Assembly: GCA_902773155.1 (NCBI GenBank)
Contig: CACYDK010000129.1
Location: 1-18,068, forward strand
Length of the DNA stretch: 18,068 bases
Source of the DNA: an uncultured Ruminococcus sp.
GTDB taxonomy: Bacteria > Bacillota > Clostridia > Oscillospirales > Acutalibacteraceae
Direction of reading: 5' to 3'
In this document: positions 78-15,654 of the stretch, one piece after another
Layout of the letters: every line of letters begins with the position of its first letter
How positions within the stretch are numbered: the stretch's first letter is position 1
Program-made: the position numbers and the translations under genes
Notes under the pieces: model-generated
Database searches by the model: none
What the model saw: the letters and a program-made list of their open reading frames with translations, nothing else
Told to the model about the DNA's origin: nothing

Positions 78-106
78 TTGTAATATTTTCAGGAATATTA
101 TATAAT
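78..106 (+). promoter_or_regulatory. Sigma-A-type promoter of the HD-GYP/GGDEF unit
   Basis: A TTGTAA box at 78-83 and a perfect TATAAT at 101-106 are separated by exactly 17 bp. Transcription would begin near 113. That leaves a leader of about 26 nt before the TTG start at 139, with GGAGGG at 127-132 in between. No other gene start lies nearby. Bases 1-77 hold only AT-rich sequence in which I see no gene. Confidence 0.7.
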
Positions 107-138
107 CAAAGTGATAGTGTTTGTTTGGAGGGATATTA

Positions 139-2259
139 TTGCCTAAACTGAAACAAAACAGCAGAAAAAGCACATGGCTTTCGCTCTTAGGGCTGGTCGC
201 AGCATGTCTGGCTCTCAATAATCTCGGTATATTCTTTAACGGAGCGCTGGGGCTTCCTTTTTATTTAGATAATATCGGAACAATTCTCGCGGCTCTGTTA
301 GGCGGATATATACCTTGTATCACCGTTGGCTTTTTGACGAATCTTGTTGCGGCAATAACCAATCCCGATTCTATTTACTATTGTATAATAAGCGTTTTTA
401 TTGCTGTTGCCGCGGTCGCTTTCGTAAGGAAGCTTCGCCTTATACGTTTTCCGCACGTAATCTGGGCTGTATTGACTTTCGCTTTTATAGGCGGAGTTGT
501 TGGCGGAATGCTGACGTGTTTTATTTACGGTATGAACTTCGGCGAAGGCGTTGCGGTCGACTTTGCCGCCTCTATTGACAAAACGGTGCCGATGGGCTAC
601 TTTTTCTCCAATTTGCTGTCGGTTTTCCTGATCGATATTGTTGACAAGACCATCGTCACGGCGTTGTCGCTGCTAATATATAAGCTGCTTCCACATAAGC
701 TTATAGGCTATCTCGGGCGTCAGGACTGGTATTTGGTTAGAATTTTTGAGGAATCGAACCGAAAAATCCGCGGACGTATGTCCCTGCGCCACAAGTCGAC
801 CCTGCTGGTTGCGGTTTCAACCACGCTTGTAGCCGCGTCCGCCATCGGTATCGCCGTTGTTCAGTATCACCATACGACGATAAGCGAGTATACTTACAAT
901 GCCGAGTACGCCGCGAGCGTCATTGCCAACAGCATCGATCCCGATCGGATCGAAAGCTTTCTCAGGGACGGCGAAAGAGCGCCGGATTATATCGCCGCGG
1001 AATCGGTTTTGCAGACCGTGAGCGACGCTTCTCCGGAGATTCAGTTCATTTATGTTTATCAGATCAGGGAGGACGGCACCCACGTTGTTTTTGATCTCAA
1101 TACAAAGGACGTCGAGGGCGACGATCCCGGACAGGTTATCGAATATGACGATACTATAAAAAAATACTCAAAGCTTTTTATGGAGGGAAAGGATATCCCC
1201 GTTGACATAACCAACGATGAGAACGGCTGGCTGCTGTCTGTATACAAGCCTGTAAAGGATAAAAACGGAAACGCCTTATGCTATGTCGGCGTCGATATAT
1301 CGATGAGCCACCTCCATGCCGACGAAGTATCCTTTATAGCCAAGGTAATTTCGATCTTCCTCGGAGTTCTTATATTGATACGAACCTACGCGGCCTGGAT
1401 GTCCGAGCGGCATATCGTGCGGCCGGTAAATGTTATCGCCGACGCGGCAAATCACTTTGTTTACGACACACCTCAGTCGCGTGAGGAAAGCCTTAAAATG
1501 ATAGACGAGCTCGGGATATGTACGGGCGATGAGATCGAATACCTGTATGACGCTTATAAGCGGACGACCTCAGATACTGTACGCTATATTAACGAGGTAG
1601 AGGAGAAGAGCGAGCAGATAGTCCGCCTGCAAAACGGGCTTGTGTTTGTGCTTGCAAATATGGTCGAAAGCCGTGATAAATGTACCGGCGACCACGTGCT
1701 TAAGACGGCGCTCTACTGCGAGATAATCCTTCGCCAGATGAAAAAAGACGGTATTTATGCCGAAGAGCTGACCGATGAGTTTATAAGCGAGGTCATTCAT
1801 TCCGCGCCTTTGCACGATATCGGCAAAATAAAGGTCTCCGATACTATCTTAAACAAACCCGGTAAGCTCACCGATGAGGAATTCAAGATCATGCAGAGCC
1901 ATACAACAGCGGGCGGCGAAATAATCGACAAGGTCGTCGACACGGTAGGTAAGGAGTCGGAATACCTGACAGAAGCCAAGAACCTGGCTACCTACCATCA
2001 TGAGAAATGGAACGGTAAGGGCTATCCCAAGGGGCTAAAGGGCAAGGAAATTCCGCTTTCCGCCCGCATAATGGCTGTAGCCGACGTGTTCGACGCATTG
2101 GTTTCGCGCCGAAGCTACAAGGAGCCCTTCTCCGTTGATGAGGCGTTTGAAATAATCCGCAGGGATTCGGGAACTCATTTCGATCCCCTGATCGTTCAGG
2201 CTTTTTTGAACGACGAGGAAGAGGTCAGACGCGTACAGGAGCTCAATATGGAGCTTTGA
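139..2259 (+). CDS. Membrane HD-GYP c-di-GMP phosphodiesterase with ECF-S-like and Cache-like sensor regions
   Basis: About 706 residues. The start is the TTG at 139: GGAGGG at 127-132 sits 6 bp before it, while the in-frame TTG at 121 has no ribosome site and lies only about 8 nt from the predicted transcript start. Residues 15-190 are polytopic and resemble the S component of ECF vitamin transporters (LDNIGTILAALLGGY, then FLTNLV). A transmembrane helix near 220-245 leads to an extracellular stretch of about 150 residues with a Cache-like pattern (IYVYQIREDG, then LCYVGVDIS), followed by a helix near 397-420 and a linker. The C-terminal third is HD-GYP: conserved His519, HDIGK at 559-563, and HHEKWNGKGYP at 620-630, all intact. 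HD-GYP enzymes hydrolyse c-di-GMP to pGpG or GMP, so I infer an active phosphodiesterase gated by an external or membrane ligand. It shares a transcript with the cyclase 38 bp downstream. The ligand is unknown. Confidence 0.88.
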   Translation: MPKLKQNSRKSTWLSLLGLVAACLALNNLGIFFNGALGLPFYLDNIGTILAALLGGYIPCITVGFLTNLVAAITNPDSIYYCIISVFIAVAAVAFVRKLRLIRFPHVIWAVLTFAFIGGVVGGMLTCFIYGMNFGEGVAVDFAASIDKTVPMGYFFSNLLSVFLIDIVDKTIVTALSLLIYKLLPHKLIGYLGRQDWYLVRIFEESNRKIRGRMSLRHKSTLLVAVSTTLVAASAIGIAVVQYHHTTISEYTYNAEYAASVIANSIDPDRIESFLRDGERAPDYIAAESVLQTVSDASPEIQFIYVYQIREDGTHVVFDLNTKDVEGDDPGQVIEYDDTIKKYSKLFMEGKDIPVDITNDENGWLLSVYKPVKDKNGNALCYVGVDISMSHLHADEVSFIAKVISIFLGVLILIRTYAAWMSERHIVRPVNVIADAANHFVYDTPQSREESLKMIDELGICTGDEIEYLYDAYKRTTSDTVRYINEVEEKSEQIVRLQNGLVFVLANMVESRDKCTGDHVLKTALYCEIILRQMKKDGIYAEELTDEFISEVIHSAPLHDIGKIKVSDTILNKPGKLTDEEFKIMQSHTTAGGEIIDKVVDTVGKESEYLTEAKNLATYHHEKWNGKGYPKGLKGKEIPLSARIMAVADVFDALVSRRSYKEPFSVDEAFEIIRRDSGTHFDPLIVQAFLNDEEEVRRVQELNMEL

Positions 2260-2297
2260 TTATCTCATTTTGATAATAGGTAAAAGAGGTGTAGATA

Positions 2298-3404
2298 ATG
2301 AAAGAATTTTCGAAGAATATAAAACAGCGGCTTTTCCCAAAGCACAAGAAAGCGGTCGACCGTGAGATCGATATGCTGAATCTCAAAACCGTATATTATG
2401 TATCGCTGGTGGAGTGCATTATTCAGTCTGTAAGCCTTATTGTTTTTATCATATCGAAGCTGTCGCATTCCGAGAATATATTTAATCCAAACAGTCTCGG
2501 CTCGATCATTAATGTTGCGTCAAGTATAGTGCTTTGCATTTTCGGATTTATTTTCTCAAGATATTTCAGACGTAAAGAGGATATTATGATCCACCATATA
2601 GCGATCAATGTTTTTTCCGGCGTTTATATAAGCCTGCTTCTTGTATGGGGCTTTATGGCTTCGCTTCAAACCTATATCCGCGGCGAGCAGATCATAACCT
2701 TCTTCACCGTTATACTGATCGCGGTATTGTTTATAAGGCTTCGTCCTCTTATTTCCGCGATAATTATACTCAGCTCGTACACGGCTGCATATATCGTGAT
2801 GGATGTTTTTATAAAGCCGGGAATGATCAGTCCGTATAATTTCTTTATGATGGGTATTATCTCGGTAGGCGGTACCGTGGTCATTTATCAGACAACTGTA
2901 AGCTATATTGAGCAAAAAATCGAGACGGTTCGACTCAACGAATCGCTGGAGGTCATCGCTAACCACGACGCCTTGACTCAGCTGCGTAACCGTTACGCTC
3001 TCAGTCAGTCCATTCCCGAATACCTCGGCATCGATATTTGTCTCGCTATGGGCGATATAGACCGCTTCAAGTCAGTAAACGATACCTATGGACACAGAAG
3101 CGGCGACGAGGTTCTGAAGGCGTTTGCGAACATTCTGCTTGAGTGCTTCGAGAAGGAGGACATATACCGTTACGGCGGAGATGAATTCCTCATCGTTTCG
3201 CGCGGTCAGGATTACGCCTCGTTTAGCGCTAAGCTCGACGAATTGAACGATAAGTTCTCAAAGGTTCGTGTAAGCGGAATAGAGGACAGCTTTGGCTGTA
3301 GCTTCGGCGGTGTGTCCGGTCATCCCGAGGTCGTTACGGATTTCTTTGACATGGTCATAAAGGCGGATAAGAAGCTTTACGAGGAAAAACGGAGCGTTCT
3401 CTGA
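2298..3404 (+). CDS. Membrane diguanylate cyclase (GGDEF)
   Basis: 368 residues, ATG start with AAGAGGT about 8 bp upstream. The N-terminal half (about 35-205) has five or six hydrophobic helices with no recognised sensor family. It is followed by a short linker and a full GGDEF domain (about 215-368). Family landmarks are present: HDALTQLRNR at the domain entry, the metal and substrate strand MGDIDRFKSVNDTYGH, and the signature GGDEF at 293-297. The site five residues before the signature lacks the RxxD inhibitory motif (the residues are EKED), so classical product inhibition is not expected. The gene lies 38 bp after the HD-GYP gene and probably shares its promoter, pairing synthesis and breakdown of c-di-GMP. 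No clear terminator follows it, so some read-through into the riboswitch leader is possible. Active-cyclase status is inferred from motif integrity. Confidence 0.9.
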   Translation: MKEFSKNIKQRLFPKHKKAVDREIDMLNLKTVYYVSLVECIIQSVSLIVFIISKLSHSENIFNPNSLGSIINVASSIVLCIFGFIFSRYFRRKEDIMIHHIAINVFSGVYISLLLVWGFMASLQTYIRGEQIITFFTVILIAVLFIRLRPLISAIIILSSYTAAYIVMDVFIKPGMISPYNFFMMGIISVGGTVVIYQTTVSYIEQKIETVRLNESLEVIANHDALTQLRNRYALSQSIPEYLGIDICLAMGDIDRFKSVNDTYGHRSGDEVLKAFANILLECFEKEDIYRYGGDEFLIVSRGQDYASFSAKLDELNDKFSKVRVSGIEDSFGCSFGGVSGHPEVVTDFFDMVIKADKKLYEEKRSVL

Positions 3405-3487
3405 GATATTCTGCGTTACGCTTTCCTGTCCGGCGAATTTACTTGTAATTATCGCGCTGTTGCGCTTTAACTTGGTTGTTTTTCCTA

Positions 3488-3516: not shown

Positions 3517-3522
3517 ACAGTA

Positions 3523-3639
3523 TATTATTTTTGAGCGTCAGGCTCTTTTTTCAGCCGTGACAGCGTTTTCGGAATATTCATCAAGCAAAATGAATAGCCT
3601 TAAATACAAAGAAGCCGAACGCGCTTTATGTAATAAAAT
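3523..3639 (+). other. 5' leader upstream of the riboswitch aptamer, with small hairpins
   Basis: This stretch has no plausible coding gene. It can fold into a hairpin at 3537-3561: GTCAGGCT pairs with AGCCGTGAC with one bulged G, and the loop is T-rich. A second, weaker one follows, with ATTCAT pairing with ATGAAT around 3577-3596. The function is unknown; it may only separate promoter and aptamer. Confidence 0.35.
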
Positions 3640-3724
3640 AAATAATAGGCAAACCTGTTGAAAAACAGGGACGCAAAGCTCAGGTATCTGAAGCGTTTTA
3701 CCAACGTATGATCGACCGGCTGCA
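3640..3724 (+). ncRNA. Class-I c-di-GMP riboswitch (GEMM-I aptamer)
   Basis: The conserved core is directly readable: AGGCAAACC at 3647-3655, stem CCTGTT (3654-3659) / AACAGG (3664-3669) closed by a GAAA tetraloop (3660-3663), then GGGACGCAAAGC at 3668-3679. These are the hallmarks of GEMM-I, in which the GNRA loop docks into a receptor in the second helix. That second arm covers about 3680-3718 and contains an inner hairpin (GCGTT/AACGT) and the closing ACCGG. The 5' strand of P1 is weak and A/T-rich, so the exact outer limits are uncertain. The aptamer lies in the leader of the exopolysaccharide operon and overlaps the 5' arm of a terminator. The identity is well supported; the direction of switching is an inference. 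Confidence 0.92.
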
Positions 3725-3751
3725 TTCTAAAAAGATTGCAGCCGGTTTTTT
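3716..3751 (+). terminator. Riboswitch expression-platform terminator
   Basis: CCGGCTGCA (3716-3724) pairs perfectly with TGCAGCCGG (3737-3745) over a 12-nt A-rich loop, followed by six T residues (3746-3751). This is a textbook intrinsic terminator. Its 5' arm overlaps the closing bases of the aptamer, so the two folds compete. Ligand binding should hold those bases in the aptamer and let transcription continue, which predicts an ON switch. Confidence 0.9.
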
Positions 3752-3783
3752 CTTTATAGATAAGATTTCTGTAGTATAAAAAT

Positions 3784-3836
3784 GACATCACCTTGTACTC
3801 GGGGGGCGATGTCCGCACGTTTTACGAGGTGGTGAT
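3784..3836 (+). promoter_or_regulatory. Possible alternative pairings covering the first gene's ribosome site
   Basis: GACATC (3784-3789) can pair with GATGTC (3808-3813). ATCACC (3787-3792) can instead pair with GGTGAT (3831-3836), part of the GAGGTGGTG ribosome site that precedes the TTG at 3840. The two helices share bases and exclude each other. A translational layer of control is possible but shown only by complementarity. Confidence 0.3.
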
Positions 3837-3839
3837 CGT

Positions 3840-4535
3840 TTGAATAAGGTTCTTAGAGAAGAGAAGAAATTCCTGATTAGTATTGCCGAATTCCGCAGCA
3901 CAAGCTCAAGGCTTGAAAAGGTGATGGCGCAGGATCCTCATAACGGCATTAACGGATATGCAGTTCGCTCGCTATACTTTGACACGCCGTACGATACCGA
4001 TTTTTTTGAAAAGCAGGCAGGCGTTGAGTTGAGAAGGAAGCTTCGCCTTCGGTGCTATGATCCAAAGCAGGATTTCGCCATGCTTGAAATGAAGCAAAAG
4101 CAGGGCGCGCGCCAGCTCAAGCGCTCGCTAAGAGTAAGCCGCCGCGACGCGCTAAGCCTGATCGACGGCGACTACCGCCCGCTGCTTGATTACAATAACC
4201 CGTTTGCCGCGGAGGTTTACGGGCTGATGAGGACGCGCGCCTATATCCCGCGGACGATAGTTCAGTATAACCGCAAGGCCTTTATCGCAAAGGAAAACAA
4301 AATACGGGTCACCTTTGACAACCAAATCGTAGCTACCGAGAGCTGTTTTGATCTGTTTTCGGAGCATTTGAATATGAATCCCGTGCTCGACCCTTACGAC
4401 GCAGTGCTTGAGGTCAAGTTCAATGGCTTACTTCTGAATTATATTCAGAGCATGATAAATTGTATAGACAAAAGCGAGCTGTCCGTCAGCAAGTATGTTC
4501 TGGCAAGACAAAACGCGTATCAAACCCATATATAA
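3840..4535 (+). CDS. VTC-domain (triphosphate-tunnel type, polyphosphate-polymerase-like) protein
   Basis: 231 residues, TTG start with GAGGTGGTG 5 to 6 bp upstream. The whole protein is one VTC-type domain. It shows the N-terminal acidic/basic strand (E7, E8, K9, K10), the SLYFDT motif at 44-49, a basic strand KLRLR (67-71), LEMKQK (82-87), Arg145, an IRVTFD strand (155-160), LEVKF (190-194) with the metal-binding-type glutamate, and a terminal SKY. Such residues line the tunnel that binds nucleotide triphosphate and polyphosphate in yeast Vtc4. There is no membrane segment, so it is cytosolic unless partnered with the DUF4956 membrane protein encoded 12 bp downstream. In bacteria this pair often sits with CotH and polysaccharide genes. 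Its product here is not known: polyphosphate synthesis is the family precedent, not a demonstrated role. Confidence 0.88.
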   Translation: MNKVLREEKKFLISIAEFRSTSSRLEKVMAQDPHNGINGYAVRSLYFDTPYDTDFFEKQAGVELRRKLRLRCYDPKQDFAMLEMKQKQGARQLKRSLRVSRRDALSLIDGDYRPLLDYNNPFAAEVYGLMRTRAYIPRTIVQYNRKAFIAKENKIRVTFDNQIVATESCFDLFSEHLNMNPVLDPYDAVLEVKFNGLLLNYIQSMINCIDKSELSVSKYVLARQNAYQTHI

Positions 4536-4547
4536 GGAGATTCGAAA

Positions 4548-5225
4548 ATGAAAGACAAGCTATTTAATCTTTTTCAGATGACAGGCGAGCTCAGCCTCGA
4601 GAGTATAATCTTTAACGTACTGGTATCGGCAGTACTTGGCGTTTTCATATTTGTTTCCTATATGATAACTCATAGGGGAACTATATACAGCAAAAAGTTC
4701 AACGCATCGCTTGTGGTCATGACGGTGCTCACAGGTACTGTAATGACGGTCATCGGCAACAATATCGCGCTTTCTCTGGGTATGGTCGGTGCGCTCTCTA
4801 TCGTCCGCTTTCGTACCGCTATAAAGGACAGCCGCGACACTGTTTATATCTTCTGGACGGTCATCGCCGGAATCTGCTGCGGCGTTGGCGATTATATCGT
4901 TGCCGCCGTCGGAAGCGCAGTGACATTTTTGGTATTGCTTACCTTCGGGCTTATCAAAAGCGACAATCGTATGCTCGTTATCATCAGAGGCTCGCGCAGC
5001 CGCCAGTCGGCTGTTCAGGCTTATATGTTTTCGGTATTTAAGCGCAAGGCGATTTTGCGTGTGAGAAATACCGACGAGGATTCTATTGAATTCATTTACG
5101 AGATAAACGCAAACCGGCTCAGAAAGGTAGAGGAAGAGCACGGCACCCTTACCGACGCGCTCTACAATATAGGCGGTATCGAGTACGTCAATATCGTAAT
5201 GCAAAACGACGAGGTGTCCAACTGA
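4548..5225 (+). CDS. DUF4956 integral membrane protein
   Basis: 225 residues, ATG start behind AAGGAG. Four hydrophobic helices are visible, near 18-38, 50-75, 98-116 and 118-135. The family signature lies between them: a long GMVGALSIVRFRT stretch at about 78-90, then KDSRDTVYIFW. The C-terminal 85 residues are soluble, probably cytosolic. The biochemical role of DUF4956 is unknown. The gene follows the VTC gene closely and ends one base before the deacetylase start, so translational coupling is likely. It most plausibly anchors or cooperates with the VTC protein, for example in moving or sensing a phosphate-rich product, but that is inference from gene order. Confidence 0.88.
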   Translation: MKDKLFNLFQMTGELSLESIIFNVLVSAVLGVFIFVSYMITHRGTIYSKKFNASLVVMTVLTGTVMTVIGNNIALSLGMVGALSIVRFRTAIKDSRDTVYIFWTVIAGICCGVGDYIVAAVGSAVTFLVLLTFGLIKSDNRMLVIIRGSRSRQSAVQAYMFSVFKRKAILRVRNTDEDSIEFIYEINANRLRKVEEEHGTLTDALYNIGGIEYVNIVMQNDEVSN

Positions 5226-5226
5226 T

Positions 5227-6642
5227 ATGAAACGTATTACAGCGTTGCTTCTGCTTGTATGCTGTTTCTTTGCCTCATGTTCAGAAAAGCCGCAGGCTCC
5301 CAAAGGGCTTTCCGTAAGTCTTAAGAAGGGCGCGGCGGTCATAAGCTGGAATAAAAGCGACGAGGCTCAGACCTACCGCCTGTACAGGCGCGCACCCAAG
5401 GACAGCGACTACAAGTTCATTTTTGACTCCGGCGGCGACGAAACCGGCTACACCGACCGGTATGTACATAACAGCGGCACTTACAGCTATAAGCTGGAAA
5501 TCATTGGCGAAGGCGGCGTTTCTGACGCGCTCGAAAGCACGCTGACTGTTTCAGCGGAGAACTCCGCCGAGCAGCCCAAGGCGCCCGACACGCCTGTTAT
5601 CTACTCCGTTACGGCTATGGACAAATATACCGCAGTGGTTTCGGTAAAGCCGCAGAAGGACTGTACCTACGAGTTTCTGCGCTCGGCTTCCGCCGACGGC
5701 GACTATAAGCATGTCTTTACCTCTGACGAACCGTATTTTTACGACGAACATACGGATCAAAAGCTCGGCTGGCACTACCGCGTCCGCGCTGTCAGGGGTG
5801 ATATGCGCAGCGGCCTCAGCGAGCCGAGAGGCACAGGGTATAATCCCGGAAGCGTATTCGGCGTGCCGGTGTTGATGTACCACGAGTTTGTCACCAAAAA
5901 AGACCTTGACTCGGGAGTCGCCTTTGACGAATACGCCGTTTACGCGGATGAATTTGAAAGCGACCTTAAGTGGCTTCGCGCCAAGGGTTATACGACGATC
6001 ACAACCGAGCAGCTTATTGATTATCTCAGCGGTAAGGGCAAAATGCCGGGAAAGCCCGTAGTAATCACGATCGACGACGGCAAATACGGCGTTTATAAAC
6101 GAGCCTGGCCGCTTTTGAAAAAGTACAAAATGAAGGCGTCGCTTTCGGTCATCGGATATGAGATCGACAACGCGACCGTCGCGCCGGACGCTCGCTCAAA
6201 AAGCGAAGCGCCGTATTGCACCTGGCAGGAGCTTGCCGAAATGTCGGATTCGGGCGCGGTCGAGATCATCAGCCATACTAACAAGCAGCATTATTTTCTG
6301 CACGACGGCAGGTGCGGCGCCTCGACAAAGGAAGGCGACACGCTCGAAACCTACCTGCCGATAGCTCAAAAGGACTATGCCGATACCGCGGCAAATTTCC
6401 GCAGGTATTTTAACTCAACTCCGACTTCAATGGCATATCCGTATTCAAGGAGAACCGAGCTTTCCGATGAAGCGTGGCTTAAAAGCGGATACAGGCTGCT
6501 TTATTCCGGCGATGACGAATACCTTCGGTACAGTATGACAAACTACTTTGTCCGCGAGGCGGGGCTCAACCGCAAGTCCGCGGTTCTCCGCAGAGTAGCC
6601 AGAATGACAAACCATCCCTTTGAGGAGTGCTTTGAAGAATAA
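5227..6642 (+). CDS. Lipoprotein polysaccharide deacetylase (NodB/CE4) with two Fn3-like domains
   Basis: 471 residues. The N-terminus is a short lipoprotein signal ending FASC, with Cys18 as the probable lipid-modified residue. Two beta-sandwich modules of fibronectin-III type follow (about 25-108 and 118-200, each with an ISWN or SVKP core strand). Then comes a NodB-type deacetylase domain (about 212-460). Its catalytic motifs are readable: VPVLMYHEF at the entry, TIDDG at 281-285 carrying the Asp pair, and SHTNKQH at 349-355 with the two metal His residues in the H-x4-H spacing used by many clostridial members. MAYPYSRR is present as the third motif. It should remove acetyl groups from an exported N- or O-acetylated polymer at the outer face of the membrane. 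The ATG is separated from the previous stop by one base. The substrate is inferred from the neighbouring synthase. Confidence 0.9.
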   Translation: MKRITALLLLVCCFFASCSEKPQAPKGLSVSLKKGAAVISWNKSDEAQTYRLYRRAPKDSDYKFIFDSGGDETGYTDRYVHNSGTYSYKLEIIGEGGVSDALESTLTVSAENSAEQPKAPDTPVIYSVTAMDKYTAVVSVKPQKDCTYEFLRSASADGDYKHVFTSDEPYFYDEHTDQKLGWHYRVRAVRGDMRSGLSEPRGTGYNPGSVFGVPVLMYHEFVTKKDLDSGVAFDEYAVYADEFESDLKWLRAKGYTTITTEQLIDYLSGKGKMPGKPVVITIDDGKYGVYKRAWPLLKKYKMKASLSVIGYEIDNATVAPDARSKSEAPYCTWQELAEMSDSGAVEIISHTNKQHYFLHDGRCGASTKEGDTLETYLPIAQKDYADTAANFRRYFNSTPTSMAYPYSRRTELSDEAWLKSGYRLLYSGDDEYLRYSMTNYFVREAGLNRKSAVLRRVARMTNHPFEECFEE

Positions 6643-6675
6643 CCTACACCAATTAACGAGGAAGGCGGTGTGTGA

Positions 6676-8145
6676 ATGAAAAAAAAGATAATCGGCATTA
6701 TCCTATGCCTTGCGGTTTTGTTCGCCGGCTTTGCCGCCGCCATATATGTGCGGCAGGAGGCTCCGCGCGTGCATCAGCACTTATCCGCTAAGACAAAGCC
6801 AGCCTGCACCGACCATGACAGCGGCGTGTTTTGTACTCACCTTCCTCTTGTTCAGATCGAAACCAAGGAGGATATCCCGGGCAAACCGATCTATGACAAA
6901 AACCACACGCGAAGCGGCTTTACTACCGCGGCCGACGGCTCCGACCGCATTGTTTCCACCGTTAAGATCACCGACAGCGAGGAAACAAACAATCATCTCG
7001 GCGATCGGCCTTCGCTCGTGAGCGAGGCGACCATTCATGTCCACGGAAACTCCTCGCGCTATTTTGACAAGCTGGGCTACAAGCTCAAGCTGATCGACAG
7101 CGACGGAAAAAGCAACGCCCAAAGCGTAATGGGCATGTCGGCGCACAGCGAGTGGATACTGCACGGCCCCTACATTGACAAAACCCTGATCAGAAATTAT
7201 ATGTGGTACAATATAGGCGGAGAGATAATGGACTATTCGCCAAACGTGCGCTTTTGCGAGTTGTTTATAAACGGCGAGTACGAGGGTATTTATGTAATGA
7301 CGGAAACCGTTACGGCAGGCAAAAACGGCGCTAGACTGCAGCTTTCGGTCGATAAAAAGGATAATACGTATTCTGGATATCTTCTCAAAGTGGACAGACC
7401 GGGCGACGCCGATATCAACAACTTTACGGAATATGTCTATCGCCTGCCCGAAACAAGCAAAATAAGCATTGAATATCCCGGAACCAAAAACATAACTCCC
7501 GAGCTTGCAACGTCCATTACAAAGGATTTCTCGGCATTTGAAAAATCAATTTACTCCTATGACTTTGACAGCGACGAGTTCGGCTATAAAAAGACGATCG
7601 ACATCGACTCGTTCGTAGACTATTTCATTATCAATGAGTTTACGGGTAACTATGACGCCGGCGGTTATTCTACCTTTATCTACAAGGATAAGGACGGAAA
7701 ATTCCGCTTGTGCGTTTGGGATTTCAACAATTCCTGCGACAACTACCATGAGCAGGCGATACCCACAGACGATTTCAGGTTGATCAATGTTCCGTGGTAC
7801 TGGATGCTTGTAAAAAACAAGGATTTCACGGATCGTATCATCAGCCGTTACCGCAGCCTGCGCGAGAGCGTTCTTTCAGATGAATATCTTGATAGCTACA
7901 TTGACGAGACGATCGCCTATCTCGGCGACGCTGTCGACCGCAATTTTGAGCGCTGGGGCTATACCTTTGAAGATGACGAGCTGCTCGATCCTCCTGAAAG
8001 AAACCTTCACAGCTTTGACGAGGCCGTTTCTCAGATGAAGGGCTTCATCAAAAAGCGCACGAAGTTTTTGGACGCCAACATTGATGTTCTTAAGCAGTAC
8101 AGCGCAGAATCGCGCGTTAAGAAATTCATAGAGAATGCTAACTGA
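6676..8145 (+). CDS. CotH-family kinase-like protein, membrane-anchored or secreted
   Basis: 489 residues, ATG start after AAGGCGGTG. Residues 5-27 form one hydrophobic segment, an uncleaved anchor or signal peptide, which places the rest outside the membrane. The CotH fold landmarks are in order: HVHGNSS (about 120-126) then YKLKL with the nucleotide-contacting-type lysine, WILHGPYIDKTLIRN (160-174), FINGEYEGIYVMTE, DIDSFVDYFIINE, and CVWDFNNS with Asp349 as metal-ligand candidate. CotH proteins of Bacillus spores are atypical protein kinases. In this non-spore setting the target is unknown and may be a protein or a polymer. An extracellular kinase domain raises the question of the phosphate donor; VTC and DUF4956 genes in the same operon may be relevant. 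Kinase activity is inferred from family only. Confidence 0.87.
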   Translation: MKKKIIGIILCLAVLFAGFAAAIYVRQEAPRVHQHLSAKTKPACTDHDSGVFCTHLPLVQIETKEDIPGKPIYDKNHTRSGFTTAADGSDRIVSTVKITDSEETNNHLGDRPSLVSEATIHVHGNSSRYFDKLGYKLKLIDSDGKSNAQSVMGMSAHSEWILHGPYIDKTLIRNYMWYNIGGEIMDYSPNVRFCELFINGEYEGIYVMTETVTAGKNGARLQLSVDKKDNTYSGYLLKVDRPGDADINNFTEYVYRLPETSKISIEYPGTKNITPELATSITKDFSAFEKSIYSYDFDSDEFGYKKTIDIDSFVDYFIINEFTGNYDAGGYSTFIYKDKDGKFRLCVWDFNNSCDNYHEQAIPTDDFRLINVPWYWMLVKNKDFTDRIISRYRSLRESVLSDEYLDSYIDETIAYLGDAVDRNFERWGYTFEDDELLDPPERNLHSFDEAVSQMKGFIKKRTKFLDANIDVLKQYSAESRVKKFIENAN

Positions 8146-8167
8146 GCAACTCTATTTTTATTATTTC

Positions 8168-8231: not shown

Positions 8232-8233
8232 CG

Positions 8234-8323: not shown

Positions 8324-8342
8324 AAAAAAATTTATGTTCTCT

Positions 8343-8406
8343 GCACAGTTTTCTGCTGCGCAGAAACGTGCAATGAGTAGCGAAATGCGCGCAAGGCGCG
8401 CCTTTC
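8343..8406 (+). repeat. 64-bp direct repeat, copy 2
   Basis: Perfect copy of 8168-8231, at an offset of 175 bp. It ends only 4 bases before the GGAGA ribosome site (8411-8415) of the hydrolase gene, so its two hairpins would sit directly upstream of that translation start in the mRNA and could affect its expression. Confidence 0.9.
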
Positions 8407-8419
8407 TTACGGAGACGCT

Positions 8420-10603
8420 ATGAAGAAATTTATTATTATTGTACTTATTATCGTGCTTCTTGTCATGGGACTCGATACCGCGTATTTCAGACTTGGCTGG
8501 TATGTCGATCTCGATCCCGGAGCTGTGCCCACCACCTTTGTCCGCACCGAGGGCGACAAAATGCTGATGCTTGACGGAGATGATTATGAGCCGTTTGAAA
8601 TCAGGGGCGTCAATTTGGGCTCGGGAATCCCCGGCGAATGGTCGACAGATTTTGCCATTGACAAGGAAACCTACAAGCGCTGGTTTAAGTACATTCAGGA
8701 TATGGGCGCAAACACCATCCGCGTTTATACCGTACAACAAGACGTTTTTTACAACGCCTTTTACGAATACAACAGGGACAACGACAACCCGCTGTGGCTT
8801 ATTCACGGAGTCTGGGTCAACGACTATGTTCAAAACTCGCACCGCGACGCATTTGATCAGGGCTTTAGGGAACGCTTCCTGTCTGACAGCCGCACAATGC
8901 TCGACGTTATCCACGGCAACAAGAAGATCGCGCTCGGCAGAATGGCTTCCTCGGGCTCGGGCTTTTATCTCAACGATATTTCCCGTTGGGTCATCGGCTA
9001 TATCCTCGGCGTAGAGTGGGAGGACGTGACCGTTGCATATACAAACGAGCAGTTCGCCGATGTTGAGGGAGCCGACAGCTACACGGGAAAGTATTTTTAC
9101 ACCTCCCCCGAGGCTTCGCCGTTTGAGGCGATGCTCGCCGAGGTGGGCGATAGGGTGGTCGAATACGAATCTAATCGCTACAAAACTCAAAAGCCGATCG
9201 CTTTTTCAAACTGGCCGACGACCGATCCGTTCGAATATCCCGAGAATATCGAGCGCTTCTTTATGAAGTGCGCCGAGGTGGACGTTGAGCATATCAAAAC
9301 GACCGAGGACTTTCTCTCCGGTCAGTTCGTATCGTATCACGTTTACCCTTATTATCCCGACTATCTGGCGTATGTTTCGGATTGGAGCGAGCTGGGCTTT
9401 GATGATCTTACGCCCTATTATACCGACGGAGTCCTCAATACCTACCGCGCCTATCTGTCGATGCTGACGCGGCACCACACCATGCCGGTTGTAATTTCGG
9501 AGTTCGGCGTCTCTACAGGACGCGGTATGGCGCAGCGCGAAATGAGCCTTGGCCGAAACCAGGGCAATATGTCCGAAAAGGCTCAGGGCAAAGCCATTGT
9601 CGACTGCTATGAGGACATAAAGGCGGCGGGCTGCTCCGGCTGCTGCGTATTCTCCTGGCAGGACGAATGGTTCAAGCGCACTTGGAACACTATGTATGCC
9701 GTTAACCTCAAACGCGACCCTTACTGGTCTGATTATCAGACAAACGAGCAGTACTTCGGCCTGCTGTCCTTTGATCCCGGTAACGAAAAATCCGTTTGTT
9801 ATGTCGACGGCGATGATTCCGACTGGGCGGATCGTGACCTTGTCACCAAAAGCGGCGATATGAGCCTTTACATGAAATATGATGAAAGGTTCATCTACTT
9901 CATGATAAAAAAGGACGGGCTGAATATTGACAAGGATAAAATATACATCCCGCTCGACGTCACTCCCAAAAGCGGCAGCAGCTATTACGAGGAAAAAGGA
10001 AAGCTCTTTGACCGTGCGATAGATTTTATAATTGAGCTTGAGGGCAAAAGCAACAGCCGCGTAAGGGTTCAGGAGCGCTACGAGGTGCTCCGCAGCAATT
10101 ATTCCGAGAACGTATATGAATTCAACGCGTATCTTAAGGACAATATCCCCGCCAAGGATTCGCCTAAGTTTGTCAATATAGATATGATCCTGCAAACGGC
10201 GACTCCGCTGTTATACAACAATATGCAGGCGCCTGCCGAGGTGTTCGAAACCGGTAAGCTGACCTACGGTAACGCCAATCCCGACAGCGCCGATTTCAAC
10301 TCCCTTGCGGACTTTATGGCCGGCGACGGCTTTGTCGAGGTCAAGCTTCCGTGGCAGCTGCTCAACTTCTCCGACCCGTCGCTGATGACGATTCACGACG
10401 ATTACTACGAGCACTACGGGATCGAGTATATCGAGATCGACAAAATGTGGGCGGGCGTTTGTGAGAACAACGGCAGACCGCGGCGCGCTGAGCTAAAGCC
10501 CTTCGAGCTTAACGGCTGGAGCAATGACGTCACCTACCACGAGAGGCTCAAAAGCTCCTATTACGTTCTGCAAAAACGCTGGAGAGATAAGAATGAAAAT
10601 TGA
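8420..10603 (+). CDS. Membrane-anchored glycoside hydrolase (clan GH-A-like) with CBM9-like C-terminus
   Basis: 727 residues, ATG start with GGAGA 4 bp upstream. One hydrophobic helix at 3-18 anchors or exports it. Residues 40-445 look like a GH-A (beta/alpha)8 barrel. The sequence opens with FEIRGVNLGSG, then MGANTIRVYT at an early strand. A strand-4 type motif YILGVEWE carries Glu199 as acid/base candidate, and VVISEFGVS carries Glu361 as nucleophile candidate. The spacing of 162 residues suits clan GH-A. From about 455 the sequence changes to a beta-rich region with VDGDDSDWADRDLV and ERFIYFMIKKDG, the pattern of CBM9-like or DOMON-like binding modules. The exact GH family is not clear to me; GH2- or GH5-related is most likely. 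The neighbourhood suggests trimming or release of the operon's polymer, as the endoglucanases of cellulose operons do. Confidence 0.8.
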   Translation: MKKFIIIVLIIVLLVMGLDTAYFRLGWYVDLDPGAVPTTFVRTEGDKMLMLDGDDYEPFEIRGVNLGSGIPGEWSTDFAIDKETYKRWFKYIQDMGANTIRVYTVQQDVFYNAFYEYNRDNDNPLWLIHGVWVNDYVQNSHRDAFDQGFRERFLSDSRTMLDVIHGNKKIALGRMASSGSGFYLNDISRWVIGYILGVEWEDVTVAYTNEQFADVEGADSYTGKYFYTSPEASPFEAMLAEVGDRVVEYESNRYKTQKPIAFSNWPTTDPFEYPENIERFFMKCAEVDVEHIKTTEDFLSGQFVSYHVYPYYPDYLAYVSDWSELGFDDLTPYYTDGVLNTYRAYLSMLTRHHTMPVVISEFGVSTGRGMAQREMSLGRNQGNMSEKAQGKAIVDCYEDIKAAGCSGCCVFSWQDEWFKRTWNTMYAVNLKRDPYWSDYQTNEQYFGLLSFDPGNEKSVCYVDGDDSDWADRDLVTKSGDMSLYMKYDERFIYFMIKKDGLNIDKDKIYIPLDVTPKSGSSYYEEKGKLFDRAIDFIIELEGKSNSRVRVQERYEVLRSNYSENVYEFNAYLKDNIPAKDSPKFVNIDMILQTATPLLYNNMQAPAEVFETGKLTYGNANPDSADFNSLADFMAGDGFVEVKLPWQLLNFSDPSLMTIHDDYYEHYGIEYIEIDKMWAGVCENNGRPRRAELKPFELNGWSNDVTYHERLKSSYYVLQKRWRDKNEN

Positions 10604-11684
10604 GATACTGATATATATATATCTGGCGGTTTGTCTTGCGATGATCGGGTTTAATATCGTCTGCATCTTTGTTTTCAGTCGCGGCGATATGGAAACCGAA
10701 CAAAGCCGTCTGTATTACATCAACCTAATTAAAGAGCAGTTCAGCAGGGAAGCTCTCGAAGATCGTCACCGCCTCCTGATTTACAAGCGGCTGGCGCACG
10801 TTCGCGAGCTGACTGCCTTCGATAAGGCTCTGGAGACGCTCTCAAAGGATTATCCCGAGGAGGTCTACTCGTATCTGCGCAAGCTTGAACACGTATTTGT
10901 CGCGTTGGCAGACCGCTACAGCAGAAGAAATGAGATTCAGATGGCTTACTTTCCGTATGTTATCTCACGTTATCGCTTGTTTGAAGGCGAGAATCTTCCG
11001 CAGATCAACCGCATACTTGTCGACCTGCTTCAAAAGCCGTCCGTATATTGCCGCGAAAACGCGCTCCACGCCGTCTATTCCTTGGGCATAAGCCAAAATG
11101 TCGCGGACGCGCTGAAAATAATCGACGAAGCGGGCTTCTATCACAATAAAAAACTGATCACGGACGGTCTGATGTCCTTTAGCGGCGACAAAAATGAGCT
11201 GGATGAGTACCTGTGGGAGCGTCTGGATGATTATTCGCTGAACATTCAGCTGGCGATTCTTGACTATATCCGCTTTTCGTCGGAAGATTTCCGCGAAAGG
11301 ATGCTCGCTCTGCTTTTGGATAACCGCGACAGCGAGATACACTACTGCGCCATCCGCTATCTGGGCAGGTACCCCTATGAGCCTGCCTATGAGCATCTGA
11401 TCAAATTCAGCGAGCACGAGGATGAAGCAAGGTGGGAGTACACCTCGATAACCTGTTTTACGCTGGCTTCATATCCCTGTGAGCGCACAGTTAACGCGCT
11501 CAAAAAGTGTCTTGGCAGCCGAAACTGGTACGTTCGTCTTAACGCGTCTCAGGCGCTTGAGCGCATGGGGCTGGAAAACATAGATTTTGTCGACATATTC
11601 GACGGAGACGACCGGTACGCAAGTGAAATGATGCGTTATAGGTTAGACAGCAAAAAACTGCATGAAAGGGCGGCAACATCATGA
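10593..11684 (+). CDS. Membrane-anchored HEAT-repeat protein
   Basis: 363 residues from the ATG at 10593, chosen because GGAGAG lies 6 bp before it and a hydrophobic helix (4-27) begins there. An in-frame upstream ATG at 10524 lies inside the hydrolase gene and lacks a ribosome site. The start overlaps the hydrolase stop by 11 bp, and the end overlaps the synthase start by 4 bp, so coupling on both sides is likely. After the membrane helix comes a cytosolic all-helical array. From about residue 115 the helical pairs are HEAT-like, for example VYCRENALHAVYSLG, SEIHYCAIRYLGRYP and WYVRLNASQALERMG. HEAT arrays bind proteins. The position between hydrolase and synthase points to a scaffold or assembly subunit of the polysaccharide synthase complex. 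No enzyme motif is visible. Confidence 0.8.
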   Translation: MKIEILIYIYLAVCLAMIGFNIVCIFVFSRGDMETEQSRLYYINLIKEQFSREALEDRHRLLIYKRLAHVRELTAFDKALETLSKDYPEEVYSYLRKLEHVFVALADRYSRRNEIQMAYFPYVISRYRLFEGENLPQINRILVDLLQKPSVYCRENALHAVYSLGISQNVADALKIIDEAGFYHNKKLITDGLMSFSGDKNELDEYLWERLDDYSLNIQLAILDYIRFSSEDFRERMLALLLDNRDSEIHYCAIRYLGRYPYEPAYEHLIKFSEHEDEARWEYTSITCFTLASYPCERTVNALKKCLGSRNWYVRLNASQALERMGLENIDFVDIFDGDDRYASEMMRYRLDSKKLHERAATS

Positions 11685-13111
11685 GATACTATTTATTTAA
11701 CGATACTGCCTTTGAGATCATCAAGGTGTTCCTGATCTGCGTGGAGTTTTTCTTTGTTATCTACCTGATCGGCTACTCGACCTTTCTGTTTATCTCCGTT
11801 GTTACCGGGTCGTCGACGCTGTACAAAAAACGACAGCAGGACAAACTGAAAAATACTATTTTAAAGAATCACTTCGTGCCGATAAGTATCATCGTGCCCG
11901 CCTACAACGAGGATGTAACGATAGTTGAGAACGTGCGCTCTCTGCTGACGCTCGACTATCCGCTGTACGAGATTATCGTAGTGGACGACGGCTCGGCTGA
12001 CAAAACCTCGGCAAAGCTGATAGACGCCTTCAATATGCTTCCGATCCGCCGTCCTATACAACGCAAAATCGACTGTCAGCCCGTGGAGTTTGTATACGAG
12101 GCGGCGACTCACAAGGTTCCGCTCACTCTGATAAGAAAAAAGAACGGCGGCAAGGCCGACTCCCTGAATACGGGCATTAACGCTTGTAAATACCCTTACT
12201 TTATCTGCATCGACGCTGACTCCGTACTACAGTACGACTCGCTGAGCAAGATCGTCAAGCCTGTGCTTGAAAACGACAATGTCGTAGCGGTCGGAGGAGC
12301 GGTGAGGCCTGCAAACAGCGTTGAGATTGAAAACGGAAGGGTCATCAATTACCGCCTTCCCAAAAATATCATTGCCTGTATGCAGGTGCTTGAATACGAC
12401 CGCTCGTTCCTAGCGTCCCGAATCCTGTTCGATAAGTTTAACGGCTCCCTTATTATTTCCGGTGCGTTCGGCTTGTTCAAAAAAGAAACCGTGATCGCCG
12501 CCGGCGGTTATGACTCTACAACGCTCGGAGAAGATATGGAGCTCGTGGTCAAGCTTCACGATTACTGCGTTTCAAACGAAATCCCATATCTCATACGTTA
12601 CGCTACTGACGCCATCTGCTGGTCTCAGGTGCCTGAAAGCATCAAAGACCTGAGCAAGCAGCGCAGGCGCTGGCACATAGGCTTGTTTCAGTCGATGTGG
12701 AGGCACAGAGTTATGCTTGCAAACACAAAGTTCGGCCTCACAAGCTTTATCTCCTACTTTTACTTTTTGATCTACGAGCTTTTGTCTCCGTTCATCGAGC
12801 TGTTCGGAATAGCCACAATGATCCTTGCGTTTCTTGTCGACCTGATAAACGTGCCGTTTATGCTGCTGTTCTTCGGAATATACGCGCTCTTCGGCTCGGT
12901 TATGTCGATGACGGCTTTCTTTGCGCGGACGCAAACCATCGACCTTAAGGTAACCTTCAAGGACGTCCTCAAGGCGCTTCTGCTGTGTACCGTAGAAATC
13001 TGCGTTTTGCGTTTTATTATGGTATGGGTACGTGCAACGGCGTTTATCGGCTACAGAAAGAGAAAGCTGCAGTGGGGAAGGATTCAGCGGAAAAAAATCA
13101 ATTTGAAATAA
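11681..13111 (+). CDS. Processive family-2 glycosyltransferase (cellulose/hyaluronan/PNAG-synthase type)
   Basis: 476 residues, ATG overlapping the preceding stop as ATGA. One N-terminal helix (about 12-37) is followed by a GT-A catalytic domain with the full processive set: VVDDGS (101-105, UDP-binding Asp), DADS (178-181), GED (283-285, catalytic base) and QRRRW (327-331, acceptor and channel gate). Three to five C-terminal helices (about 345-460) form the translocation channel. The family polymerises a UDP-sugar on the cytosolic face and extrudes the chain. No PilZ domain is present: the protein ends soon after its last helix, so direct c-di-GMP activation of the BcsA kind is not visible. 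The polymer cannot be read from sequence. A deacetylase in the operon favours an acetylated or amino-sugar polymer; cellulose-like chains also remain possible. Confidence 0.93.
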   Translation: MRYYLFNDTAFEIIKVFLICVEFFFVIYLIGYSTFLFISVVTGSSTLYKKRQQDKLKNTILKNHFVPISIIVPAYNEDVTIVENVRSLLTLDYPLYEIIVVDDGSADKTSAKLIDAFNMLPIRRPIQRKIDCQPVEFVYEAATHKVPLTLIRKKNGGKADSLNTGINACKYPYFICIDADSVLQYDSLSKIVKPVLENDNVVAVGGAVRPANSVEIENGRVINYRLPKNIIACMQVLEYDRSFLASRILFDKFNGSLIISGAFGLFKKETVIAAGGYDSTTLGEDMELVVKLHDYCVSNEIPYLIRYATDAICWSQVPESIKDLSKQRRRWHIGLFQSMWRHRVMLANTKFGLTSFISYFYFLIYELLSPFIELFGIATMILAFLVDLINVPFMLLFFGIYALFGSVMSMTAFFARTQTIDLKVTFKDVLKALLLCTVEICVLRFIMVWVRATAFIGYRKRKLQWGRIQRKKINLK

Positions 13112-13120
13112 GGTAAGCCT

Positions 13121-15016
13121 ATGAAACTGAAACTAACAGCGATCATCACAGCCGCAGTGCTGTTGATATCCGGAGCATTCGCGGCTAACGCGGCGGTATA
13201 TACGGTCAAAGAACCTGCAAACGGGAACACCGTCTATATTGCCGGCGATCCCGATATGTACCCGATAGAATACTACGATGAACAAGCAAATGAATACAAG
13301 GGAATTTTACCGGAGCTTTATAAAAAGATCTCCGATGAAAGCGGCATTGATTTTTCCTATATCAATGCCGGCACTGTCAACGAGCAGTTCCGTCTTGCAA
13401 AAAACAAGCAGGTTGAGATCGTTTCGGCTCATGCCAAGGGCGATGTGGACTTCCTGGCCGAAGAGATGCATATACTGACCTATAACAAGGGCGACAGAGA
13501 GGTAGAGCTGTGCGTAGGCTTTACGTCGATCGCGCCGCCGGATGTGGTAAAAACAGTCTCTTCCGCGCTTAAGTCTGTTTCTTCCGAGCAGATTCTGCGA
13601 ATCTCGGTAGAGACGGCGATGACAGACTCTCCACATGACTTTCCTTACTGGCTGATTATTATATCCGGCGTGCTTGCGGCGGGCTGTGCGATCCTTGTTA
13701 TCGTTATTCTCAATCGCCGCAAAAAGGATAAGACTGAAAGAGAAAACCGCCTGACCGACTCCCTGACGGGCATAGGCAACAGCGATTATTTCGAGCAGTG
13801 GTATACAAGCTTTATCTCACCGGTCATGTATGAGCTCTACTATATAGCTTATATCGGCATTGACATACAGCGGCTCCTTCAGTATGCCGACGCTTCCGTA
13901 GCTCAGGAGCTACAGATATACGCCGCAGCCGAATTATCCGCCGTGGCAAGCGATACTGACTTTTGCGCTAGGATATCGGACGGTATTTTCGCTCTGGCGT
14001 TTGAAGCTCCGGACGAGACTCGGGCAAAGGAGTGTATAGAGCGTCTGATTTCGAGGCTAAACCAATTCAATAACGATGATATGCTGAAATACCACATCCA
14101 CTTTCAGGCGGGCGTATTCCACCTCGACGCGCCGAACATCCCATGCGAAAAGGCGTTGCTCAACTCCAGACACGGCTTTTATCACGCGCGTGAAGCAGGC
14201 GAACCGTATATCTTCGCCGACGCCAAGCTGCTTAAGCGCGAGGAGTATGTTCAGGGCTTGAAAAAGAAGCTGCGCGACGCGCTCGAAAAAAAGGAATTCA
14301 GGCTTTATGTGCAGTATATATTTGACGGCAAGGGCGAGCTCGCGTGCGGCGCCGAGGCGTTGTCGCGTTGGGACAGCCCCGAGGAAGGCATAATTGTTCC
14401 CGCGGACTATATTCATATGCTCGAGACCTCTGAAATGATCGACGAACTCGATTTTTACATCCTCGGCGAATGCTGCCGCGCACTGTCGGAATGGAAGTAC
14501 ACCTCGAAAAAGAACCTCTGGCTTTCGTGCAATATGACGCGGATCACGCTTTCCGTCGAAGGCTTTGAACGGCGGTTCAGGGAAATTGTCGAGAGGTATG
14601 ATTTCGATACCGATAAGCTTGTGATCGAAATCACAGAGGACGCGCTTTCTGAAAACCAAAAGCATATTTCGGACAGCATTAATTTCTGCAAAAGTATGGG
14701 CTGCCGTATCGCGCTCGATGATTTTGGCTGCGGCTATTCCTCGGTCAAGGATCTTAATGATTATCCTATAGATATTTTGAAGATCGACAGGGCGCTGATC
14801 ACCGAAACAAAAACCGAAAAGGGCAGGCAGCTTCTGCGCGGCATAATAAAGCTTGCTCATTTTATCGGCATAAAGGCTCTGTGCGAGGGTGTTGAGACCG
14901 AGGAGGAAATGAAGGTTTCAACAGAAGCGGGCTGCGACTATATCCAGGGATATTTGCTCGCCGGAACCAACCCTGCCGACGAGCTGTCAGCAGAACAAAA
15001 CATAAACTTTTTGTAA
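13121..15016 (+). CDS. EAL c-di-GMP phosphodiesterase with solute-binding-like sensor and degenerate GGDEF
   Basis: 631 residues. The ATG lies 9 bp after the synthase stop, whose TAAGG also serves as a weak ribosome site. A signal peptide (about 1-24) leads to an extracellular domain (25-178) resembling the amino-acid-binding SBP_bac_3 fold (PIEYYDEQANEYKGILPELY). A helix at about 184-204 and a GGDEF-like domain with SDGIF at 286-290 in place of the signature follow; it is therefore catalytically dead. The EAL domain (about 375-625) keeps its catalytic residues: E412 of EAL, N471, E503, D533/D534 of DDFG, K554, E589 and Q609. It should hydrolyse c-di-GMP to pGpG. Placed downstream of a c-di-GMP riboswitch, its expression would lower the signal that controls its own operon, a probable negative feedback tuned by an external ligand. 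Confidence 0.92.
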   Translation: MKLKLTAIITAAVLLISGAFAANAAVYTVKEPANGNTVYIAGDPDMYPIEYYDEQANEYKGILPELYKKISDESGIDFSYINAGTVNEQFRLAKNKQVEIVSAHAKGDVDFLAEEMHILTYNKGDREVELCVGFTSIAPPDVVKTVSSALKSVSSEQILRISVETAMTDSPHDFPYWLIIISGVLAAGCAILVIVILNRRKKDKTERENRLTDSLTGIGNSDYFEQWYTSFISPVMYELYYIAYIGIDIQRLLQYADASVAQELQIYAAAELSAVASDTDFCARISDGIFALAFEAPDETRAKECIERLISRLNQFNNDDMLKYHIHFQAGVFHLDAPNIPCEKALLNSRHGFYHAREAGEPYIFADAKLLKREEYVQGLKKKLRDALEKKEFRLYVQYIFDGKGELACGAEALSRWDSPEEGIIVPADYIHMLETSEMIDELDFYILGECCRALSEWKYTSKKNLWLSCNMTRITLSVEGFERRFREIVERYDFDTDKLVIEITEDALSENQKHISDSINFCKSMGCRIALDDFGCGYSSVKDLNDYPIDILKIDRALITETKTEKGRQLLRGIIKLAHFIGIKALCEGVETEEEMKVSTEAGCDYIQGYLLAGTNPADELSAEQNINFL

Positions 15017-15047
15017 TAAAGGGAACATCTGATAAGGAGTTGGGGAT

Positions 15048-15596
15048 ATGTCACTGTTTCAAAATGAAAACATAACCGAACAGGATACAAATTATAAGAG
15101 CATGGGAAAAAGCCAGCTGATTATGCTTCTGCAATCTCAAAAGAGCGATATTGACGCGCTCGAGCGCAAGCTTGGTAAAACAGCCGCCTTAGAGGAGGAG
15201 AACAAGCGCCTCACAGAGCAGACTGCAGCCCTTGGCGCCGAGAACGAAGCGCTTAAAGCCAGGATCGCAGAATTGGAGGAGCAGCTTGCTCCAAAGGATT
15301 CCGAGCTTAACGAGCCGGGCTCGATCGCCGAAATGGCGTTTAGCGTCAACGGTGTTATGAACGCGGCGCAGAAAGCAGCCGACGATTATCTTGCAAAGAT
15401 CAAGGAAATGCATGATAATATGAGCCACGAGTACAGCGAATACGAGACAGCCGCCAGGCAAAAGGCGGACGCTATTATGAAGAATGCCGTCGAGGAAGCG
15501 GACGCTGTAAAAATGAAAGCCCGCACCGAGGCAAACGACATCTGGAACACCCTTCAAAAGCGATTGGATAACTATATTTCAGATAAAAAGCAGTAA
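15048..15596 (+). CDS. Small coiled-coil protein, DivIVA-like in character
   Basis: 182 residues, ATG start with AAGGAG 8 bp upstream and 31 bp after the EAL gene. There is no signal peptide or membrane helix. Residues about 34-88 form a heptad-rich coiled coil of Glu, Leu, Ala and Lys. A second helical region (about 97-178) contains repeated Ala/Glu/Lys blocks such as ARQKADAIMKNAVEEADAV, reminiscent of the tail of DivIVA and related polar scaffolds. I do not recognise a specific family. As the last gene of the operon it could help position or organise the export machine, but no motif proves this. The real function is unknown. Confidence 0.75.
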   Translation: MSLFQNENITEQDTNYKSMGKSQLIMLLQSQKSDIDALERKLGKTAALEEENKRLTEQTAALGAENEALKARIAELEEQLAPKDSELNEPGSIAEMAFSVNGVMNAAQKAADDYLAKIKEMHDNMSHEYSEYETAARQKADAIMKNAVEEADAVKMKARTEANDIWNTLQKRLDNYISDKKQ

Positions 15597-15619
15597 AAAC
15601 AATTTATACTTTGTAAAGC

Positions 15620-15654
15620 GAAGGCGCATACATCATAACGATGTACGCGCCTTC
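15620..15654 (+). terminator. Hairpin terminating the exopolysaccharide operon
   Basis: GAAGGCGC-a-TACATC (15620-15634) pairs with GATGTA-c-GCGCCTTC (15640-15654): 14 pairs with one mismatch and a 5-nt loop. It begins 23 bp after the coiled-coil stop. The 3' side is A/T-rich without a strong T run. The A-rich bases before it could supply a T run on the other strand, but no convergent gene exists there. Confidence 0.65.

Follow-up and report, generated by a model that had tools for sequence, protein, structure and literature searches.

An 18,068-base stretch of DNA from an uncultured Ruminococcus sp. (contig CACYDK010000129.1 of assembly GCA_902773155.1; hereafter the window) was analysed for a putative exopolysaccharide operon under the control of cyclic dimeric guanosine monophosphate (c-di-GMP). 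Thirteen genes were counted in the window, every one on the + strand, and the parts named in an earlier note on this DNA (genes for an HD-GYP and a GGDEF protein, a c-di-GMP-I riboswitch and nine collinear genes) were all found on that strand. The nine-gene operon (3840-15596) is preceded by a c-di-GMP-I (GEMM-I) aptamer (3638-3727), the sole one detected in the 1.54-Mb assembly. It starts with a VTC-domain protein with a TTG start codon (3840-4535; Pfam VTC, 6.1e-39), followed by a DUF4956 membrane protein (4548-5225; Pfam, 1.2e-10), a polysaccharide deacetylase nearest to PgaB/IcaB (5227-6642; Pfam, 5.1e-15), a CotH kinase-family protein (6676-8145; Pfam, 1.7e-63; CotH structure 5jd9, E 3.1e-6) and a glycoside hydrolase (GH) or transglycosidase of the clan GH-A type with a C-terminal beta domain (8420-10603). 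The distal part encodes a HEAT-repeat protein with a hydrophobic N-terminus (10596-11684; Pfam HEAT_2, 1.1e-11), a processive polysaccharide synthase of glycosyltransferase family 2 (GT2; 11681-13111; Pfam, 7.3e-26), a degenerate-GGDEF/EAL phosphodiesterase (13121-15016; EAL, 9.4e-60) and, as the last gene, a coiled-coil protein (15048-15596) with no Pfam match above its cut-off. The gene junctions measure -8 to 33 nucleotides (nt), except for a gap of 274 nt between the CotH and GH genes. By fold and sequence, a hairpin at approximately 15620-15654, with a strong stem and a poor U tail, is a possible end of the operon.

The aptamer matched Rfam RF01051 over the full model (positions 1-87) with 62.1 bits (E 2.7e-10), which is above the gathering score of 35. 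Its last 14 nt constitute the 5' arm of an intrinsic terminator (3714-3756) that forms the expression platform. This terminator is part of the lowest-energy fold predicted for the leader, and for positions 3638-3760 the predicted energy was -40.1 kcal/mol with the terminator versus -24.7 kcal/mol with the aptamer forced. Because the aptamer 3' strand is at the same time the terminator 5' arm, ligand binding should hold the terminator back, and the leader is predicted to act as a transcriptional ON switch. In order to assess this arrangement beyond the window, 35 GEMM-I leaders were compared (the window, L033 and 33 named loci), which are related and whose events are not independent. A hairpin beginning within the final 6-24 nt of aptamer sequence was found in all 35, followed in 34 of them by at least six U in the next 9 nt (exception L110, three U). 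Counted from the conserved G, position -5 of the shared strand was paired as C-G in 11 leaders, U-A in 4 and A-U in 13 (unpaired in 7), position -4 as G-C in 11, A-U in 16 and G-U in 6 (unpaired in 2), and position -1 as U-A in 24, C-G in 7 and U-G in 3 (unpaired in 1). The mean duplex energy was -12.7 kcal/mol within leaders, -10.0 between leaders and -6.7 with shuffled downstream sequence. The overlap of aptamer and terminator is present in 35/35 leaders, with compensatory changes in the shared strand, so that the two structures are predicted to exclude each other through the shared strand in the window and in 34 other leaders.

Conservation of the operon was assessed in two samples. Among 150 genomes sampled from the family, a VTC match was present in 65; 20 loci were fetched, eight of which were covered by the Rfam scan. 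The operon core was present in three of the 20 (L032, L033 and L034; L032 is the same contig as L110), whereas the other 17 carried VTC-DUF4956 with different neighbours, so that VTC was of little use as a marker of the operon. A scan with the GH alignment of one genome per species for 84,980 species yielded 577 confirmed relatives, the best 80 of which were used. These were mainly Clostridia assemblies of gut and rumen origin and included Anaerotignum, Oscillibacter, Flavonifractor, Blautia, Eisenbergiella, some Bacilli and Paenibacillus agaridevorans. Examples of cultured commensals with the operon are Anaerotignum lactatifermentans and Flavonifractor. The earlier note had made its proposal depend on a conserved gene order, and this order was borne out: the six core genes for VTC, DUF4956, CotH, GH, HEAT and GT2 followed the window order in 65/65 loci showing all six by tblastn. 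Extended reading frames gave the order in 64/65, the exception (L121) being an over-extension artefact. GT2, HEAT and hydrolase were conserved as well as VTC, and an EAL gene lay 3' of GT2 in 53 of the 58 loci that extend at least 2.6 kb further. A deacetylase gene was detected in 13/80 loci (several are cut by contig ends), in 10 of these 13 between DUF4956 and CotH, and is thus an accessory and not a core gene.

The interval between GT2 and EAL measured 240-730 nt in 28/65 loci, and in 18 of these 28 it encodes an F-GY-K-V-YI motif. Six loci (L085, L096, L107, L076, L091 and L100) have an extra gene there for a coiled coil with a DivIVA-like N-terminus, possibly a localiser; the one such protein scanned scored 23.5 bits against Pfam DivIVA, below the cut-off of 28. 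The window instead carries its coiled coil after EAL, and this protein looks unrelated to the DivIVA-like one.

The distribution of riboswitches was counted in the 68 loci with VTC in view, leaving out 12 of the 80 without it. GEMM-I was located 39-210 nt 5' of the VTC match in 33 loci and, in L093, before a deacetylase gene heading the operon, which gives 34/68. In 30 of the 34 genomes no second GEMM-I was reported, in searches that were capped at 82, 106 or 92 scored candidates per genome and hence did not score every candidate. A model built from the positives (R1) and run on 72 sources contributed nothing to this count beyond L093 and a weak, decayed match in L108. In three further loci (L112, L121 and L125) VTC is preceded, at a distance of 85-252 nt, by a c-di-GMP-II aptamer that exceeds the gathering score, and in these leaders, too, a terminator starts in the 3' strand of the aptamer. 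In a midpoint-rooted FastTree of GH and GT2 the three cluster within a GEMM-I-bearing group, which suggests that class II replaced class I in one event. Some of the loci with no riboswitch have a GGDEF gene directly upstream.

The GT2 residues D102/D103, D178xD180, E284/D285 and QxxRW (327-331), which we take to be the motifs of processive synthases, were identical in 73/73 aligned sequences. Together with the conserved partners this supports the assignment as a Gram-positive synthase-type polysaccharide operon. The eight EAL residues taken here as the catalytic set are complete in the window protein and in 49/58 aligned sequences. The N-terminus of the window protein is weakly SBP-like (SBP_bac_3, 21.3 bits, cut-off 26.4), and a GG(D/E)EF motif was found in none of the 58 aligned EAL proteins. 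Among the nine exceptions, L075 ends early, and the other eight belong to one riboswitch-less clade that includes Paenibacillus, Blautia parvula and Eisenbergiella. Intact and decayed EAL proteins numbered 31 and 0 in riboswitch-bearing loci versus 12 and 8 in the others (Fisher p 2e-4, kinship ignored).

We consider it likely that the nine genes constitute a c-di-GMP-induced, synthase-type surface-polysaccharide operon with an ON riboswitch and a delayed feedback by its EAL protein. By default the leader would fold into the terminator and the nine genes would be off. Binding of c-di-GMP to GEMM-I would withhold the aptamer 3' strand from the terminator, allowing the polymerase to read through. 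GT2, probably partnered by the HEAT protein, would then make and export a beta-linked polymer, the clan GH-A hydrolase would trim or remodel this polymer, and in this lineage the PgaB/IcaB-like deacetylase would modify it; VTC, DUF4956 and CotH may represent an accessory module that accompanies polymers of more than one kind. Translated from the same transcript, the EAL protein would lower c-di-GMP. As an operon induced by c-di-GMP would thereby include a phosphodiesterase with a complete active site, delayed negative feedback by the operon's own EAL protein is likely. To this extent the analysis upholds the earlier proposal of a Gram-positive exopolysaccharide system that lies behind a c-di-GMP riboswitch, has VTC, DUF4956, CotH and HEAT as constant partners and contains a phosphodiesterase.

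Several observations weigh against this interpretation. No intact c-di-GMP riboswitch was recognised in 31/68 loci, 30 of which showed nothing recognisable while L108 retained a decayed match (18.4 bits), and the eight EAL proteins of the single clade mentioned above lack the full catalytic residues. L034 carries the operon with neither riboswitch nor EAL in view and with a GH that lacks E361. In the window itself, a strong hairpin (3755-3860; z -3.8, equalled by 0/200 shuffles) covers the ribosome site and the TTG start of VTC; it was not shared by six related leaders checked. Finally, across the order, GEMM-I was present in 83/295 genomes, and of the best matches inspected in 79 of them only eight precede this operon (the window, L033, L144, L163, L168, L198, L205 and L206), with at least four fetched stretches (L170, L186, L187 and L209) too short to tell. 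On this count, the idea that GEMM-I in the order mainly serves this operon was dropped. In L168, GEMM-I lies directly 5' of the CotH-GH pair, in a stretch with no VTC match.

Other readings of the product were weighed. The polymer might be a chain like poly-N-acetylglucosamine (PNAG; beta-1,6-GlcNAc, partly deacetylated), which would make the operon a riboswitch-controlled analogue of pga/ica. The window shares with these a processive GT2 and a PgaB/IcaB-type deacetylase: GT2 scored best against PgaC/IcaA (TIGR03937, 150.1 bits), the deacetylase against PgaB (TIGR03938, 122.7 bits; IcaB TIGR03933, 75.8 bits), and the best PDB matches of the deacetylase were the PNAG deacetylases 4u10, 4wcj and 5bu6. 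However, these scores are far below the curated cut-offs (422.3, 321.9 and 248.35, respectively), the deacetylase is accessory, the hydrolase finds its best fold match not in a PNAG hydrolase but in GH157, for which laminarin fragments are shown, and the PgaD, IcaD and IcaC families are absent from the NCBIfam matches of the operon. Its remaining partners also differ from those of pga/ica, as does the placement of control in an RNA leader. A PNAG-like polymer is a guess, possible but doubtful. Cellulose was rejected. The clostridial cellulose synthase locus (ccs) combines a GT2 with a glycoside hydrolase in Clostridia and so resembles the window in gene content, but the window GT2 scored 37.5 bits where the CelA cut-off is 699.1, and the genome (assembly 94% complete) showed no PilZ domain. 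A Pel cluster (pelDEADAFG) was likewise rejected, as the ten proteins scanned against Pfam and NCBIfam matched none of the Pel families. In another alternative, VTC, DUF4956 and CotH would make the main product, either a surface polymer bearing phosphate or a surface protein that is phosphorylated, and GT2 would only glycosylate it. VTC and CotH are present in nearly all loci in view, basic residues of VTC, including R65, K67, R69, R71, K85, K94, R95, R145, K193 and K218, reach 95% conservation or more across 68 sequences, and CotH has a known kinase fold; a PDB search with VTC added little. Since VTC-DUF4956 pairs have other neighbours in 17/20 fetched loci of the same family, the pair is a module and not the core of the system, and GT2, HEAT and hydrolase are no less conserved than VTC. 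We regard this alternative as unlikely.

The signal itself could also be read differently. In some members the aptamer might sense another cyclic dinucleotide such as cyclic GMP-AMP (cGAMP), as the position equivalent to G20 of Vc2 is described as a selectivity factor whose change is linked to cGAMP selectivity (PMC9262584), and six of the 35 leaders (L078, L086, L097, L104, L115 and L139) have A there. The window, on the other hand, keeps G at this position and likewise the GCAAAG adenine and the GC close to its 3' terminus; the assignment of G20 follows our own reading of the numbering. Moreover, three relatives carry c-di-GMP-II instead, and among the A20 members listed the EAL residues for c-di-GMP cleavage are retained, which leaves this reading very improbable. 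The origin of the signal is a further point, for the earlier note had called the locus self-contained. Upstream of the operon, as neighbours and not as core genes, lie an HD-GYP phosphodiesterase (121-2259; Pfam HD_5, 1.7e-32; motifs HDIGK and HHExxNGxGYP; true start probably the TTG at 139 behind GGAGG) and a membrane diguanylate cyclase (2298-3404; Pfam GGDEF, 5e-26) with an intact GGDEF motif, in which no RxxD was found at the usual distance from GGDEF. That these two and the EAL protein set the c-di-GMP level seen by the operon is consistent with their collinearity in the window and in the close relative L062. A GGDEF gene was located within 3 kb upstream in 19/55 testable loci, against 15 matches in 444,605 bases elsewhere in the loci (0.10 per 3 kb, both strands, kinship ignored), and it was commoner with GEMM-I (13/25) than with no riboswitch (6/27; p 0.04, kinship ignored). 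However, the genome encodes five GGDEF and three EAL domains, of which two and one are in the window and three and two on other contigs, and an HD-GYP gene lies within the same 3 kb upstream in just 6/55 loci. A closed circuit was rejected on these grounds: it is improbable that the local enzymes alone set the level, and neither neighbour is general. What does tie the operon to the messenger is the RNA: in the apparent absence of PilZ, no c-di-GMP receptor other than the riboswitch was recognised in connection with it here.

Some features of the window stand apart from these questions. The membrane N-terminus of the HD-GYP protein is ECF-S-like (NCBIfam CD3073, 50.3 bits, cut-off 180), an unusual sensor for a c-di-GMP enzyme. 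Promoter-like sites were found at 78-106 and 15720-15748; the first of them and the terminal hairpin agree with the limits of 78 and 15654 proposed earlier. Downstream of the operon follow a GNAT gene and a protein with no Pfam match. Inside the gap between CotH and GH, positions 8168-8406 hold a stretch whose ends are 12-nt inverted copies (8234-8245 and 8312-8323) and which has an identical palindromic repeat of 64 nt on either side. This stretch looks inserted, since the gap measures only 15-91 nt in the eight relatives checked. The core of the repeat has 10 genomic copies with at most two mismatches, and none with the reversed control.

The closest published counterpart is NELoc-2 of Clostridium perfringens, covered in three reports (PMC2879425, PMC5964661, PMC11677781). 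The published table lists VTC proteins of 232 and 230 amino acids (aa), "tubulin/FtsZ" proteins of 226 and 222 aa, CotH of 497 aa, a hypothetical protein of 685 aa, HEAT of 377 aa and a 466-aa glycosyltransferase annotated as chitin synthase (PMC2879425). By place and size, the 226-aa membrane "tubulin/FtsZ" protein would correspond to DUF4956. As far as order and lengths go, the series of VTC, the putative DUF4956 protein, CotH, a protein of about 700 aa, HEAT and GT2 in the window agrees with this table. A later survey reports a deacetylase in 18/23 NELoc-2 strains (PMC11677781). In contrast to the window, NELoc-2 is headed by a sigma factor and an anti-sigma protein, and its VTC-DUF4956 pair is doubled around a resolvase. 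Neither a riboswitch nor an EAL gene is named in the accessible text, where the word riboswitch occurs only in a reference title (PMC2879425). CotH, polyphosphate polymerase and DUF4956 are also described beside Gram-positive Pel clusters, in bifidobacteria together with a gene for a diguanylate cyclase/phosphodiesterase (PMC7112168). These clusters resemble the window in placing the three families next to an exopolysaccharide system; they contain Pel genes with PelD binding c-di-GMP, whereas the window has GT2, HEAT and a riboswitch. The partners that the earlier note called non-standard are partly in print already. A mechanistic parallel is the GEMM-I riboswitch of Geobacter pilM, an ON switch with mutually exclusive terminator and aptamer, in which the terminator takes the ligand-pairing cytosine; its ligand, however, is cGAMP, and its targets are the pilus genes of a Gram-negative bacterium (PMC9262584). 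No publication joining this gene set to a riboswitch was found in a literature search that had most subscription journals outside its scope.

The operon is a conserved system made of parts of known kinds, and in print it appears so far, as judged from the accessible sources, mainly as an unexplained enteritis-associated locus. New, as far as seen, are the conserved, predicted ON control by a riboswitch with an exchange of riboswitch class and the phosphodiesterase built into the operon. Whether these operons amount to a widespread, unrecognised Gram-positive class seems to us an even bet. In such a class, c-di-GMP control would reside in an RNA leader and not in a PilZ- or PelD-type protein, and the operon would be built as a feedback loop. 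The riboswitch slot would be under selection, because the unrelated class II would have replaced class I in one subclade, and in the riboswitch-less clade EAL would decay to a likely non-enzymatic form. In the Gram-positive Pel system of Bacillus cereus, c-di-GMP acts through the protein PelD (PMC7112168). Here the predicted sensor is an RNA, kept with its terminator and swapped for another class in one group, and an RNA sensor makes a cheap in vitro test possible. NELoc-2, an enteritis-associated locus to which the texts consulted assign no function, could by this comparison be read concretely as an operon for a polysaccharide, and the comparison names cultured commensals that carry the operon.

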